NCBI RefSeq assembly: GCF_023223645.1
Contig: NZ_JALKBY010000019.1
Location: forward strand, 1 to 45,219
Reading direction: 5' to 3'
Origin: Natroniella sulfidigena
Lineage (GTDB): Bacteria; Bacillota; Halanaerobiia; Halobacteroidales; Halobacteroidaceae
Length of the DNA stretch: 45,219 nt
The position numbers and the translations under genes are program-made. Position 1 is the first letter of the stretch, and every line of letters starts with the position of its first letter. The notes beneath the pieces were generated by a model. It had not been told where the DNA came from. It saw only the letters and a program-made list of their open reading frames with translations, and ran no database searches. Positions 21,243 to 26,011 of the stretch are shown in pieces.

Positions 21243-22577
21243 TTAATAGACTTTCAAATATTCGTCTAATTCCCACTGGTGAACCTGAGTTCGATAAATA
21301 TCCCACTCTATCTGCTTAGCTTCAACAAAATGTTCTAGTACATGCTCTCCTAATGCATCTTGAATTAATTCATTTGCCAATAACTCTTGAACTGCTTCAT
21401 TAATATTACCTGGTAAACTTTCAATTCCTGCTTCTTCCTTTTCTCCTGTTTCCATAGCAAAGATATTTTCTACTATCTCTTTAGGTGGTTCAATTTTATT
21501 CTTGATTCCATCCAATCCAGCTTTTAACATCACAGCAGTTGCTAGATAAGGATTTGCAGAAGGATCTGGATTTCTCATCTCTACTCTAGTCCCAGCTCCT
21601 CGAGCAGCAGGAATTCTAATCAACGCACTTCGATTCGAAGCAGACCACGCCAAATAAACTGGAGCTTCATAACCTGGTACTAGCCGCTTATAAGAATTAA
21701 CTGTTGGATTAGTTATAGGAGTAATTGCTTTAGCATGCTTTAATAACCCTCCAATATAATAATAAGCTGTTTGGCTTAACCCTAACTCATCATCTGGGTC
21801 ATAGAATACATTCTCTCCATCTTTAAATAATGACTGATTCATATGCATTCCAGAACCATTTTCTCCAAAGATTGGTTTTGGCATAAAGGTAGCATGCAAT
21901 CCATGTTCATTAGCAATCGCCTTAGTAACAAATCTAAAAGTAGCAATATTGTCTGCTGTCGTTAATGCATCAGAATATTTAAAGTCAATCTCATGTTGAC
22001 CAGGAGCTACTTCATGGTGTGAAGCCTCCATCTCAAAACCCATCTTCTCTAAAGCTAATACAATATCTCGACGAGCATCCTGACCTGTATCAGCTGGCCC
22101 TAAATCAAAGTAACCACCTTGATCATTTGTAACTGTAGTCGGATTCCCATCTTCATCCTTTTCAAATAAGAAGAACTCTGGTTCCGGGCCAACATACATC
22201 TCATAACCCATCTCTGCTGCTTCTTCTAATGCTTTTTGCAGTACATTTCTTGGCCCGCCAATAAACGGTTCTCCATCTGGAGTATAAACATCACAGATCA
22301 ATCGAGCAACTGTCCCACCAGTTTTTGGCCTCCACGGAAAGATAGTAAAAGTATCATAGTCAGGCTTTAAATACATGTCAGATTCTTGAATTCGAGTAAA
22401 ACCATCTATCGATGAACCATCAAACATTATCTGTCCATCCAAAGCTTCCTCCAACTGCTCTACCGTAATTGCTACATTCTTAATAACTCCTAAAATATCT
22501 GTGAACTGTAACCTAATAAACTTAACATCCAACTCCTCTGCTTGTTGTAATACATCTTCTTTACATAATTGACTCAT
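21243..22577 (-). CDS. glnA: Type I glutamine synthetase (GSI-alpha)
   Basis: A 444-residue glutamine synthetase that fixes ammonia onto glutamate with ATP. Seen: [18 protein letters not shown] (metal ligands), the [13 protein letters not shown] segment, [29 protein letters not shown] and [12 protein letters not shown]. Length is that of the feedback-inhibited GSI-alpha form of Gram positives, and no adenylylation loop of the beta form is apparent. TAAGGAGGAATAAAAATG gives the start. A GlnR-type MerR gene lies directly upstream, as in the Bacillus glnRA locus, and the promoter between them carries 11-bp phased boxes. Confidence 0.96.
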
Positions 22578-22603: not shown

Positions 22604-22704
22604 GTGTAAGTTTTATGTTAACTTTGTGTTAATTATAATCTTTGAGCTTTACTTTGTCAAGAGAAAAACATAAAAAGTTTTTATTCTTAACATAAAGTTT
22701 ACAT
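22604..22704 (-). promoter_or_regulatory. glnA promoter with 11-bp phased TTAACA box arrays
   Basis: Minus-strand TTGACA (22660-22655) and TATAAT (22637-22632) have a 17-bp spacer. Immediately downstream of the -10 are three boxes, starting on the plus strand at 22604 (GTGTAAG), 22615 (ATGTTAA) and 22626 (GTGTTAA), exactly 11 bp apart. Upstream, 26 bp beyond the -35, are two boxes in the opposite orientation, TTAACAT at 22687 and TTTACAT at 22698, again 11 bp apart. The proximal array covers the start of transcription, suggesting repression. Confidence 0.8.
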
Positions 22705-22709
22705 TTAAG

Positions 22710-22949
22710 TCACTTATCCTTCAACTTTCTTTTGATCCCAGCAAGGTTTAACCCCTGCTCCAATAAGCTTTTAATCTCTTTTAACTTTTCAATATCCTCT
22801 TGAGAATAAAGCCTCTGGTTCCCTTGGGTTCGTTCAGGATCAACCAAGCCAGCTTTTTCATAATAACGGACCCGCCGAGCTGTTAACTTAGTCTTCTTCT
22901 CAGCAACACCAATAGAATAAATTGAAGTTGTAGGATTATCTCCAGTCAT
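22710..22949 (-). CDS. GlnR-like MerR-family regulator lacking the C-terminal tail
   Basis: A 79-residue protein that is almost entirely a MerR winged-helix DNA-binding domain: YSIGVAEKKTKLTARRVRYY (helix-turn-helix), GNQRLYSQEDIEKLKEI (wing and helix 3) and LEQGLNLAGIKRKL. This matches the GlnR/TnrA branch by memory of conserved residues (SARxIRYYE, EGNxRLFS, EQGVNMAGIK). Bacillus GlnR has about 130 residues, with a C-terminal tail that senses glutamine-bound glutamine synthetase; that tail is missing here. It lies directly upstream of glnA. AGGAGGGG precedes its ATG. Nitrogen control is inferred from family and position. Confidence 0.82.
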   Translation of the reverse strand: MTGDNPTTSIYSIGVAEKKTKLTARRVRYYEKAGLVDPERTQGNQRLYSQEDIEKLKEIKSLLEQGLNLAGIKRKLKDK

Positions 22950-22984
22950 TATATCCCCTCCTAACTGTATTTTATTTGTTTAAT

Positions 22985-23218
22985 TTAAGTTGATTTATAA
23001 TGCCTCCCCTGATTAAGCATCGCATATGATGTCAGCTTCTTGTACTCTTTTTGGGGTACATACCACTCACCCTTAACCTTCTTCGCTGCCAACTCTCCAT
23101 TTTTAACTCTATTTTCTAGTACAATTAGAGGCTTACCCACCAAAATAGCAACCTCTTTAAGATTCATATATTTTCTACCCTTATATTCCATTTTAGATCT
23201 TTCTATTTCAGTACACAT
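22985..23218 (-). CDS. Small excisionase-like HTH protein
   Basis: A 77-residue basic protein with one winged-HTH of the excisionase/HTH_17 type: YMNLKEVAILVGKPLIVLEN (helix-turn-helix), then NGELAAKKVKGEWYVPQKEY (wing). No sensor domain is present and no integrase or phage gene is nearby. It is the first gene of a two-gene operon with the GlnR-like regulator (35 nt gap). Its own promoter has the 11-bp phased boxes, so it may be an autoregulated nitrogen regulator. GGAGGGG precedes the ATG. Function is inferred from fold and context only. Confidence 0.72.
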   Translation of the reverse strand: MCTEIERSKMEYKGRKYMNLKEVAILVGKPLIVLENRVKNGELAAKKVKGEWYVPQKEYKKLTSYAMLNQGRHYKST

Positions 23219-23240
23219 TTAAACCCCTCCACACTGTTTT

Positions 23241-23352
23241 ATGTTATCTTCATGTTAACTATATGTTAATTATAAACCTTGTATTCGGCTTTGTCAAGTT
23301 ATAATACCATTTATTTTCAGTTTTGTTCAGGATTATACCATGAAGATAACAT
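23241..23352 (-). promoter_or_regulatory. Promoter of the small-regulator operon with phased boxes
   Basis: Minus-strand TTGACA (23297-23292) and TATAAT (23274-23269) are 17 bp apart. Three boxes, ATGTTAT at 23241, ATGTTAA at 23252 and ATGTTAA at 23263, are exactly 11 bp apart and abut the -10. Upstream are ATACCAT at 23335 and ATAACAT at 23346, 11 bp apart, opposite orientation, 37 bp beyond the -35 (one 11-bp step further than at glnA). ATAACAT is also part of an inverted pair with ATGTTAG at 23356. Confidence 0.78.
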
Positions 23353-23422
23353 ATCATGTTAGCTTCGCCTTAGCTATTTAACTCTATCAACTACTGCACT
23401 AGGTAGAAAATTACATTAAATT

Positions 23423-23569
23423 GATAAATAGCTTAAGTTTAAGGCTGAGGAAATGGTTTTATTACGAAGGGTTTTTATAAACCCGAAGGTGAGTTTAAGT
23501 CAACCATTAAAAACATAAGGTCTTAGCTCTTACTTAGACTTAGACTCAAACTTAAACTGAATTGTAATT
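23423..23569. repeat. TTAAG-family intergenic repeat, copy E with 41-bp module
   Basis: Nearly identical to copy B: GATAAATAGCTTAAGTTTAA at the left, module at 23450-23490, and CTTAGACTCAAACTTAAACT at the right. It occupies the gap between the small-regulator promoter and the terminator of the Amt-chemoreceptor gene. Confidence 0.82.
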
Positions 23570-23575
23570 AACCCA

Positions 23576-23609
23576 CAAAAAAGTCCGAACCATAATGGCT
23601 CGGACTTTT
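23576..23609 (-). terminator. Terminator of the Amt-chemoreceptor gene
   Basis: AAGTCCGA (23581-23588) pairs with TCGGACTT (23600-23607), with CCAT/ATGG extending the stem inside. On the minus strand a run of six T follows. It starts just beyond the stop codon. Confidence 0.8.
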
Positions 23610-23611
23610 GC

Positions 23612-25888
23612 TTAAACATTAAAACCTGCTATAGAAACCTCTATCTTCTCTACCATCTCAGCTAACGTCTGTGAAGACTCCATTAAATCCTGTGAGATTT
23701 GATTAATCTCATCTGTATCATCTTTAATCTTTTCCCCTCTAATAGACAACTCTTGTGTATCAGCAGAAGTCTGCTGAATATTAACTGAAGTATTAAGGAT
23801 ATAATCCTCAATCTCCTCAAAAGATTCTCCTGCATCTTCAATTATATCTTTACCTTCCTCTGCTTTCTCTTCAATATCAAGTACAGCTTGCAAACTCGAT
23901 TCTGATTTATTTAATGTCTCTCTAATTAAATTCGCAATCTTATCTGTAGCTTGATTTGTATTATCTGCTAAAGCCCTAATCTCATCAGCTACAACCGCAA
24001 ACCCTTTCCCAGCTTCGCCCCTACGAGTTCTTTCAGAACTCTCCGTAGTAAAACTTGCTCTTGCTGCCTCAATACTAGCATTCAAAGCTAATAAATTAGT
24101 CTGTTCTGCTATATTAGTAATAAAATTAACAATTTCTTCTATTTCAGCAGAATTATTATTCAACTGATTGATCAAATCAACTCCTTCTTCTATTGAGCTA
24201 TTGATCTCTTCCATCTGCTTAATAGCAGCAGACAAACTATCACTCCCCAACTCAGTCTGTGCTGCTGCTTGCTGAGCCAAACTACTGACCTGTTGACTAC
24301 TCGCTGAAATCTGCTGAATACTAGCAGCCATTTCAGTCACATTTCCAGCAGTACTTTCAGTGATCGAATTACCTTTTTGAGCTGAAGTAGATAACTCTTG
24401 ACTAGAGTTAGATAAGATCTCAATCAATTCAGTTAAATCAGTAATTAATGAACTGACCCGTTGATTAGTCCGATTGAAAGTACTTAACAAACCTGCTTCT
24501 CCATCATCAGTCGTATCCAATCTAGTACTAAAATCTCCCTGAGCCATCTTCTTCAATCCCACTAACACCTTCTCAATCGTCTCCCAACTCGCTGCTCCAA
24601 AATCTGAATAAGTACTAGCACCATGCTCTGCTAAATCTAGCCCTTCTATCTCTTCTTTCTCCGAAACTCTTAATCCAATTACCAGATCAATCCCCTTGAA
24701 TAATAAGAAAGCTGTCAGAAATGTCCAAATAGCTACACTGACTACCCCTCTAGCTTGAATCAATAATAACTCAATTCCTCCACCATAAAAATATCCTCTC
24801 TCTACTGCTAATAAACCGACCATCAAAGTACCAAAGCTACCACAAACACCATGAACTGCAATTGCTCCTACTGGATCATCAACATGTAACTGATCAATTA
24901 ACTCAATTGCAAAAATCACAAGAACTCCAGCTAAGCCACCAATTATGATCGCTCCTAAATTACTAACATTTGCCGTTCCTGCTGTAATGCCTACCAAACC
25001 AGCTAAAGCACCATTTAAAGTCATACTGACATCCGCATTACCATATTTAATCCAGCTAGTAATCATCGCCAAAGTTGCTCCAGTAGCTGCTGATAAGTTG
25101 GTCGTTACTGCAATTTCAGCAATACTCAAATCAGTCCCTGCCACTGTACTACCTGCATTAAAACCGAACCAACCAAACCAAAGAATAAAGACTCCTAAAG
25201 CAGCCATCAATAAGTTATGACCTGGAATGGCATTGATTGAGCCATCTTCATTATACTTACCCAACCTTGGCCCGAGTACAATTGCTCCTGCTAATGCTGC
25301 CCAGCCACCTACTGAATGAACAACGGTTGAACCAGCAAAATCAATCATTTCTGATAACCAACCACCACCCCAGATCCAATGACCAACAACTGGATAAATA
25401 AACCCTGTAATCACAATACTATAGACTAAATAACCACTAAACTTTGTCCTGCCAGCCATTGCTCCAGAGACAATTGTTGCTGCAGTCGCTGCAAAAACAG
25501 CTTGAAAGATCCAAAAAGCACTGATTGGAATCTCTAAGCCTAAATGCTCAAATCCCCCACTCAAAAAGAAACCTTCTAAACCAATGAAATTATTCCCTGC
25601 TCCAAACATAAAGGCAAATCCACAGATCCAATAAATCAATGAACCAACTGAGAAATCCATTAAATTCTTCATAATAATATTCCCTGTATTCTTAGCTTGA
25701 CTAAAACCTGCTTCTACCATTGCAAAACCAGCTTGCATAAAGAAGACCAAAAATGCTGCCAGCAATGTCCACATTGTGTCTATTGCTACCCTTTCTGCTG
25801 CTCCTACTTCCTCTACTGCTTCAACAGTAATAGGTAACGCTCCAAGTAGAACCAATACTACCATTAATATAATTACCTTTTTCTGCAC
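23612..25888 (-). CDS. Ammonium transporter fused to methyl-accepting chemotaxis domain
   Basis: A 758-residue fusion. Residues 1-24 are a signal peptide and ~30-405 a complete Amt channel closely similar to the adjacent amt product, with DFAGSTVVH (Asp183, pore His191) and [11 protein letters not shown] (pore His346) intact. After a short linker, ~437-490 is HAMP-like and ~490-758 is an MCP signalling hairpin with [19 protein letters not shown] and [17 protein letters not shown] at the tip. A 12-residue insertion (612-623) separates these tip strands. Known Amt fusions include histidine kinase outputs; here the output would be CheA/CheW. Proposed role: ammonium chemoreceptor or transceptor. 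GTG at 25888 has AAAGGAG at better spacing than GTG at 25897. Confidence 0.9.
24020..24055 (-). repeat. Palindromic insertion inside the Amt-MCP coding sequence
   Basis: These 36 bp encode the 12 extra residues [12 protein letters not shown] at the chemoreceptor tip. On the coding strand they form GAGTTCT-GAA-AGAACTC with an outer CTAC/GTAG pair and a 3-nt bulge. The flanks GTTTTACTACGGAG and CGTAGG resemble the intergenic module (GTTTTATTACGAAG, and CCGTAGG in the copy at 35754-35783), with compensatory stem changes. It looks like an in-frame insertion of the same palindromic element. Confidence 0.6.
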
Positions 25889-25910
25889 CCTACTCACTCC
25901 TTTAAGTCAT

Positions 25911-26011
25911 ATGTTAGGTTAATGTTATGTTAGTGTTAATTATAAGCCAAACAGAGATATTTATCAAGGGTTTAGATAATTATTTTTCACTCTTTTACAT
26001 TATTTTAACAT
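25911..26011 (-). promoter_or_regulatory. Promoter of the Amt-chemoreceptor gene with phased boxes
   Basis: Minus-strand TTGATA (25967-25962) and TATAAT (25944-25939) have a 17-bp spacer. Boxes ATGTTAG at 25911, ATGTTAT at 25922 and GTGTTAA at 25933 are exactly 11 bp apart and abut the -10. Two opposite-strand boxes, TTTACAT at 25994 and TTAACAT at 26005, begin 26 bp beyond the -35, the same distance as at glnA. Confidence 0.8.

Follow-up and report, generated by a model that had tools for sequence, protein, structure and literature searches.

Head-to-tail 11-bp arrays of putative GlnR half-sites at nitrogen promoters of Natroniella sulfidigena and its relatives

The 45,219-nt stretch of Natroniella sulfidigena DNA analysed here (the window; contig NZ_JALKBY010000019.1 of assembly GCF_023223645.1, a 2.6-Mb genome placed by NCBI taxonomy in the Halobacteroidaceae, order Halanaerobiales) contains three nitrogen-linked promoters, each followed immediately by three short boxes repeated in one orientation at 11-bp steps, and the same arrangement recurs across the order. 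We read these boxes as half-sites of the MerR-type regulator GlnR (TGTNA, or TNACA on the other strand) that would be laid head-to-tail at an 11-bp step instead of in the usual 17-bp palindrome, and that would serve repression at the transcription start under nitrogen excess; we put the probability of this reading at roughly 0.7. It rests on the box pattern, its phase, its conservation, its target genes, its co-occurrence with glnR, hybrid sites that combine palindrome and repeat, and a conserved DNA-reading head.

The three promoters lie on the minus strand and share one layout: a -35 of TTGACA or TTGATA, a 17-bp spacer and a TATAAT that is followed immediately by TNACAY-N5-TNACAY-N5-TNACAY. 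At glnA, which encodes a type I glutamine synthetase (21243-22577, minus strand), the array occupies 22604-22631 directly downstream of the -10 TATAAT (22632-22637; -35 TTGACA at 22655-22660). At the operon of two small regulators, hthX and then a short GlnR, it occupies 23241-23268, next to a -10 TATAAT at 23269-23274 (-35 TTGACA at 23292-23297), and at a gene for an ammonium transporter fused to a methyl-accepting chemotaxis signalling domain (the Amt-chemoreceptor gene; 23612-25897, minus strand) it occupies 25911-25938, with TATAAT at 25939-25944 and TTGATA at 25962-25967. All nine proximal boxes stand where a preliminary description of this DNA had placed them, and the abutting -10 and the 17-bp spacer that it noted are present at all three promoters. 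Its opposite-strand upstream pairs are likewise real: ATGTAA-N5-ATGTTA at 22688-22704 for glnA, a pair at 23336-23352 for the small-regulator operon, and ATGTTA-N5-ATGTAA at 25995-26011 for the Amt-chemoreceptor gene, the distal box lying 73, 84 and 73 bp from the array start, so that the middle pair stands one 11-bp step farther out. The RTGTTA consensus proposed for the boxes does not hold for all of them, the box at 22604 reading GTGTAA, the upstream pairs including TGTAA variants and the second upstream box of the middle promoter being degenerate (TGGTA, against TAATA in the sister species, L069). The three start sites had been called unlinked; they belong to separate promoters, but all lie within one nitrogen cluster of 3.4 kb. 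With the transcription start presumed from the position of the -10, the proximal array covers it, a position that suits repression, as had been suggested.

Such regularity had been considered hard to obtain by chance, and the counts agree. Across the genome, three RTGTTA boxes at 11-bp steps give two exact matches and one with a single mismatch, which together are the three reported arrays; allowing two mismatches adds three matches elsewhere, and the reversed control gives two at up to two mismatches. The core TNACA-N6-TNACA-N6-TNACA matches exactly three times in the genome, each time at a window array, and its reversed control not once. Within the window, shuffles predict 0.50 matches to this core at up to one mismatch, and five are seen: the three arrays, one in an overlapping register and one that touches the upstream pair of glnA. 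None of 100 shuffles reached five. Over 13 genomes of the order, the three-box pattern at up to one mismatch yields 50 matches, some of them Pho boxes, against 3 in the reversed control (both summed from our table). Eight of the 50 were not fetched (G005 C1:340598, 345047 and 345073; G006 C37:32226; G007 C9:818918; G008 C29:82264; G010 C40:2579; G012 C8:78603). The array observation is confirmed.

A scan of relatives for the boxes at glnA and amt, which the preliminary description had named as the refuting test, came out in favour of conservation: arrays were seen in 12 of the order's 13 genomes, and most of them stand at nitrogen genes. Our catalogue comprises 38 array promoters from 12 genomes, taken from regions fetched on purpose around pattern matches. 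Left out of it were overlapping registers (L072:10008, L073:10004, L076:10060, L082:9888, L090:10009, L091:4814, L092:9873), the two-mismatch L082:594, two matches fronting response-regulator genes (L090:10818, L092:10681) and the L107 match from another family; 42 tabulated rows became the 38 of the pair, letter and position analyses once two pstS-type rows, L091 and the second array at L076 were dropped. The 17-bp spacer together with a -10 abutting the first box is seen at 29 of these 38 promoters, and the TTGACA/TATAAT consensus is likewise matched to within one mismatch of 12 by 29 of 38, the fit being the best of nine placements. Consistent with the nitrogen regulon proposed earlier, the genes behind nitrogen-type arrays in the fetched regions include glnA, amt, amt-chemoreceptor fusions, nadE, short GlnR genes, class-III aminotransferases, a peptidase M20, an XRE regulator followed by an amidohydrolase, a LamB/YcsF gene, a dapF-led pair and transporters. 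The short GlnR gene stands behind an array in the genus of the window and also, at two mismatches, in G006 and G007. Named relatives were sought through the Amt protein; among the 80 loci listed, two are of the order (Halonatronum saccharophilum and Orenia metallireducens), and 13 of the 80 supplied genome handles, GlnR being matched in 6 of these 13.

The letters of the boxes point to the kind of protein that may read them. In GlnR-DNA structures the protein reads T, G, T and A through one tyrosine and two arginines (PMC9249791), and the corresponding residues R25, R28 and Y29 do not vary among the 24 aligned GlnR-type proteins, whether these are short or long. The 114 boxes of the 38 arrays depart from RTGTTA 41 times, 28 times at the position that GlnR leaves free in TGTNA and otherwise 5, 1, 0 and 1 times at T, G, T and A and 6 times at R. 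At five pstS promoters (n=28 boxes, same search pattern, pstS identified at all five, five genomes of the order) the free position never departs, whereas T and G do, and position 8 is T in 5 of 28 boxes as against 71 of 76 nitrogen boxes. By their letters, the array boxes obey the half-site rule TGTNA of MerR-type GlnR, unlike the pstS boxes.

These letters bear directly on the regulator first proposed, since the preliminary description had taken the direct repeats as a sign of an OmpR- or PhoP-type protein and not of MerR-type GlnR. According to that proposal, an OmpR/PhoB-type response regulator would bind the arrays as tandem dimers. The arrays are indeed tandem 11-bp direct repeats, as are PhoB/PhoP boxes, and arrays of similar core precede pstS in the same orientation within the order. 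Furthermore, one OmpR-type clade is represented in every one of the 13 genomes, and hence is as universal as GlnR, while no other clade reaches all of them (62 PF00486 matches in 13 genomes; six weak matches, E 1e-6 or more, and one 55-aa frame were left out, giving a tree of 55 rows). The genome of the window has four OmpR-type matches. The universal clade is, however, PhoB/YycF-like (both models matched, below their cut-offs), its gene in the genome of the window lies 2 kb from the pstS box, nothing links it to the nitrogen arrays, and in two genomes of family f2 the regulator directly before pstS belongs to another clade. The nitrogen and pstS boxes also differ in their letter rules, in the fourth position (free versus fixed) as in position 8, and in the neighbouring gene, and an OmpR-type reader leaves the hybrid palindromes and the link to glnR described below unexplained. 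An OmpR-type reader is therefore disfavoured, and we regard it as improbable; because of the letter rule, the hybrid sites and the co-occurrence with glnR, we reassign the arrays to a MerR-type GlnR.

Hybrid sites place the repeat and the GlnR palindrome in one operator. In four of the five genomes of family f2 (G008, G009, G011 and G012), a canonical TGTNAN7TNACA at a glnA is flanked on both sides by a half-site exactly 11 bp away, in the order half-site, 11 bp, half-site, N7, inverted half-site, 11 bp and an inverted half-site that overlaps the -35. Among 15 glnA upstream regions, the 11-bp TNACA repeat lies at the -35 in ten and after the -10 in one, and is missing from four, of which one is only 102 bp long and one is a near miss. 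Class-wide, glnR promoters carry TNACA exactly 11 bp upstream of a -35 TGACA in 14 of 15 cases and in two of two more (L051, at a contig start, is not among the 15, and the sole exception, from another class, has 12 bp), often without the left half of the palindrome, and the 11-bp step is also found in a Tepidanaerobacteraceae bin. In 15 genomes without GlnR detected at E<=1e-12, the repeat is found in none of 18 glnA upstream regions, one of them only 226 bp long.

A number of observations weigh against GlnR working on direct repeats. GlnR is known as a weak symmetric dimer that occupies palindromes. Dimerisation is reported to be required for its DNA binding in Paenibacillus (PMC6191146), and the exact palindrome TGTNAN7TNACA is absent within 300 bp upstream of glnA, hthX and the Amt-chemoreceptor gene of the window, where the best matches carry one or two mismatches; promoters elsewhere in the order do have it. 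G012 has GlnR yet shows no nitrogen-type array (one of its two matches was not looked at), G009 has a single one, and an amt match was obtained in neither. At the glnR promoters the TGACA within the -35 hexamer itself supplies one box of the repeat, which leaves only the other box informative and limits the weight of this test; in addition, Jeotgalibacillus shows the 11-bp step with one letter off, and two Paenibacillus show 10 bp. A three-box array near a long GlnR gene was not found in the order (loci L093-L106), and GlnR genes occur in many genomes of the class in which arrays were sought at glnR, glnA and amt only. Finally, by our own arithmetic the upstream pair stands at a phase of about 7 of 11 to the array, while that of the fused palindrome is 2 of 11. 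Because these phases differ, it is unlikely that a single GlnR lattice runs continuously through the promoter, and we rejected a palindrome-phased lattice running unbroken from the upstream pair to the proximal array.

Candidate readers are few in this genome. Matches to MerR_1 (PF13411) number two, both GlnR-like, a short and a long GlnR with open frames of 89 and 146 aa; array-bearing G003 (of the same family as the window), G004 and G010 have one such match each, the long GlnR. The short protein (P0001, 79 aa; 22710-22949, minus strand) comprises the GlnR winged helix-turn-helix head without the C-terminal tail of the long GlnRs. Its predicted structure (predicted local distance difference test score 90.6) best matches the GlnR-DNA complex 4r4e (template modelling score 0.89), with CarH as the next fold match behind GlnR and TnrA, and no BldC chain appears among the 45 sequence matches listed. 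The full-length GlnR is encoded elsewhere, on contig C31. Long GlnRs end in a conserved LxSLYPVSNRAxL that the short ones lack; it is like, without matching, XG(E/D)XSRF, the motif of the C-terminal GlnR tail that binds glutamine-inhibited glutamine synthetase (PMC9249791). The remaining protein, hthX (P0002, 77 aa; 22985-23218, minus strand), is encoded by the first gene of the operon that also encodes the short GlnR and has weak similarity to HTH_17 (E 0.055, below the family cut-off). Its matches are confined to the genus of the window (2 of 61 genomes), and as a general reader it was rejected.

The tail-less short GlnR, by itself or with hthX, could nevertheless be imagined as the sole reader of the arrays, assembling into a head-to-tail filament in the manner of BldC while the long GlnR takes the palindromes. 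The small MerR-like protein BldC uses its winged helix-turn-helix alone to bind direct repeats, head to tail (PMC5859096), truncation of the GlnR tail strengthens DNA binding (PMC9249791), and the short GlnR is both tail-less and preceded by an array. BldC repeats are 9 bp long and read AATTXXXXC (PMC5859096), unlike the 11-bp TNACA steps found here, and P0001 best matches GlnR structures. Against such a division of labour, G003, G004, G008, G010 and G011 have arrays with no short GlnR found there, and hthX is limited to one genus; it seems to us quite improbable.

If GlnR is the reader, its winged helix-turn-helix heads would fill the three boxes, which begin at the -10 and extend over the presumed transcription start, and the filled row would block RNA polymerase at a near-consensus promoter when nitrogen is in excess and glutamine synthetase is glutamine-inhibited. 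The full-length GlnR would be the likely nitrogen sensor, its tail contacting the glutamine-inhibited enzyme; binding, the direction of regulation and this sensor role are what we infer from the features above. The tail-less head of some genera, encoded behind its own array, may then be an autoregulated second player. Since truncated GlnRs bind DNA more tightly (PMC9249791; PMC6191146) and the short GlnR is made behind an array of its own, it may maintain a baseline of repression, or it may compete with GlnR bound to glutamine synthetase. That the repeats should act instead in the RNA leader, through TRAP-like binding to regularly spaced motifs, is scarcely credible: boxes 2 and 3 would be transcribed, but the first box lies at the -10 and start, the conserved upstream pair is not transcribed, the 11-bp step is about one turn of the DNA helix, and the letters fit a DNA half-site. 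We rejected an RNA-level repeat on position only.

The upstream pair is phase-locked to the promoter. A convergent RTGTNA pair at 11-bp spacing (score within 1.25 mismatches) accompanies 22 of the 38 promoters, against 0 to 4 at control spacings of 7-10 and 12-16 bp, one on the other strand, and a mean of 0.75 with a maximum of 3 in 300 dinucleotide shuffles. Pair-to-array distances cluster at 61-64, 71-75 and 84-85 bp, with one at 104, and their mean resultant on an 11-bp circle is 0.776, although the related genomes are not independent and the Rayleigh and shuffle figures therefore overstate significance. The fixed helical phase between the flanking arrays that had been suspected is thus borne out, and it suits a class-I-like upstream site equally well as a loop between these arrays. 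With the start set 7 nt after the -10, the pair centres fall at about -61 (6), -71 (13) and -82 (2), with one at -102 (n=22). Such stepping corresponds to the helical steps of class-I activators. Within the GlnR half-site reading, the pair would be a second docking site in fixed helical phase with the promoter, which may activate under nitrogen limitation, like site I at Paenibacillus nif, or strengthen repression. A variant compatible with that reading, to which we give nearly even odds, makes the pair a separate activating site for nitrogen limitation with no contact between the flanking arrays. The class-I steps favour it, as does Paenibacillus nif, where an upstream GlnR site activates and a downstream one represses (PMC6191146), but activation is hardly needed at the 29 promoters that lie within one mismatch of consensus, and 16 of the 38 have no pair by the score used.

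The nearest working precedent for such rows is CarH, whose operators the arrays resemble. CarH places MerR-type heads on three or four tandem 11-bp repeats, nnnnTnnACAn, that overlap promoter elements, but it senses light and binds B12, and it forms a tetramer in both cases described (PMC9304148 and PMC8156234). A CarH-type reader was rejected for the genome of the window, the MerR_1 survey having returned just the two GlnR-like proteins, neither with a B12-binding domain. It is conceivable, if unlikely, that one glutamine-inhibited glutamine synthetase oligomer serves as a scaffold that grips several GlnR tails and simultaneously places their heads on all five half-sites, three proximal and two upstream, in a repression complex centred on the enzyme and surrounding the promoter. 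If so, an enzyme would play the part that the tetramerisation domain plays in CarH, whose tetramer on 11-bp repeats would have its nitrogen counterpart here.

GlnR is the textbook case of a weak dimer brought onto a palindrome by glutamine synthetase. The arrays share with GlnR and TnrA of Bacilli (TGTNAN7TNACA) the half-site letters, the conserved reading head and the targets glnA, amt and nitrogen scavenging, and differ in that the 17-bp palindrome gives way to head-to-tail 11-bp arrays, one of two half-sites upstream and a proximal one of three that starts at the -10. GlnR sites on both sides of a promoter are found at Paenibacillus nif, and the situation may be likened to B. subtilis glnRA, where two sites, one overlapping the -35, act cooperatively (both PMC6191146). 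In the excerpts of PMC9249791, PMC5859096, PMC6191146, PMC5569456, PMC3412718 and PMC9948412, wherever a motif is described for GlnR sites it is a palindrome; PMC5569456 also reports sites in which no motif is recognisable. In the literature covered, with subscription papers mostly outside that coverage, we found no description of GlnR direct-repeat arrays, and no paper on GlnR in Halanaerobium or on nitrogen regulation in Halanaerobiales. The same half-site in direct-repeat rows, with hybrids still present, would mark an operator route from palindrome to array, and it suggests that GlnR can work in rows beyond the textbook symmetric pair. The arrays make the number of GlnR heads per glutamine synthetase complex a directly testable question, and they may be relevant to the 35 GlnR sites of B. 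subtilis that are reported to have no canonical box (PMC5569456). They also offer a pattern by which nitrogen regulons can be searched for in halophilic anaerobes.

Several minor observations concern the array-driven genes and the spread of the arrays. In family f5, in which no GlnR was detected, G015 and G024 (L008, L007) each carry a near-identical array, GTTTTATGCCTATGTTAAGTTTRTGTTA, once per genome. The array-driven glnA of G008 (L084:10046-11377) contains one in-frame TGA, which reflects a sequencing error or else a broken copy of the gene. Long Amt frames (750-995 aa) like the Amt-chemoreceptor fusion of the window recur in G002, G003, G005, G006, G007 and G010. In G002-G007, a protein family of about 60 residues is encoded directly after the array promoter and before glnA or amt (L071:11734-11916, plus strand; L072:7415-7621, minus; L073:10049-10240, plus; L074:7767-7973, minus; also in L077 and L083). 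The family resembles the composite beta domain of urease alpha or of amidohydrolases, standing on its own, with weak Pfam matches below cut-off (E 0.013 to 0.13) for the three members tested, and it is a candidate small nitrogen-regulated protein.

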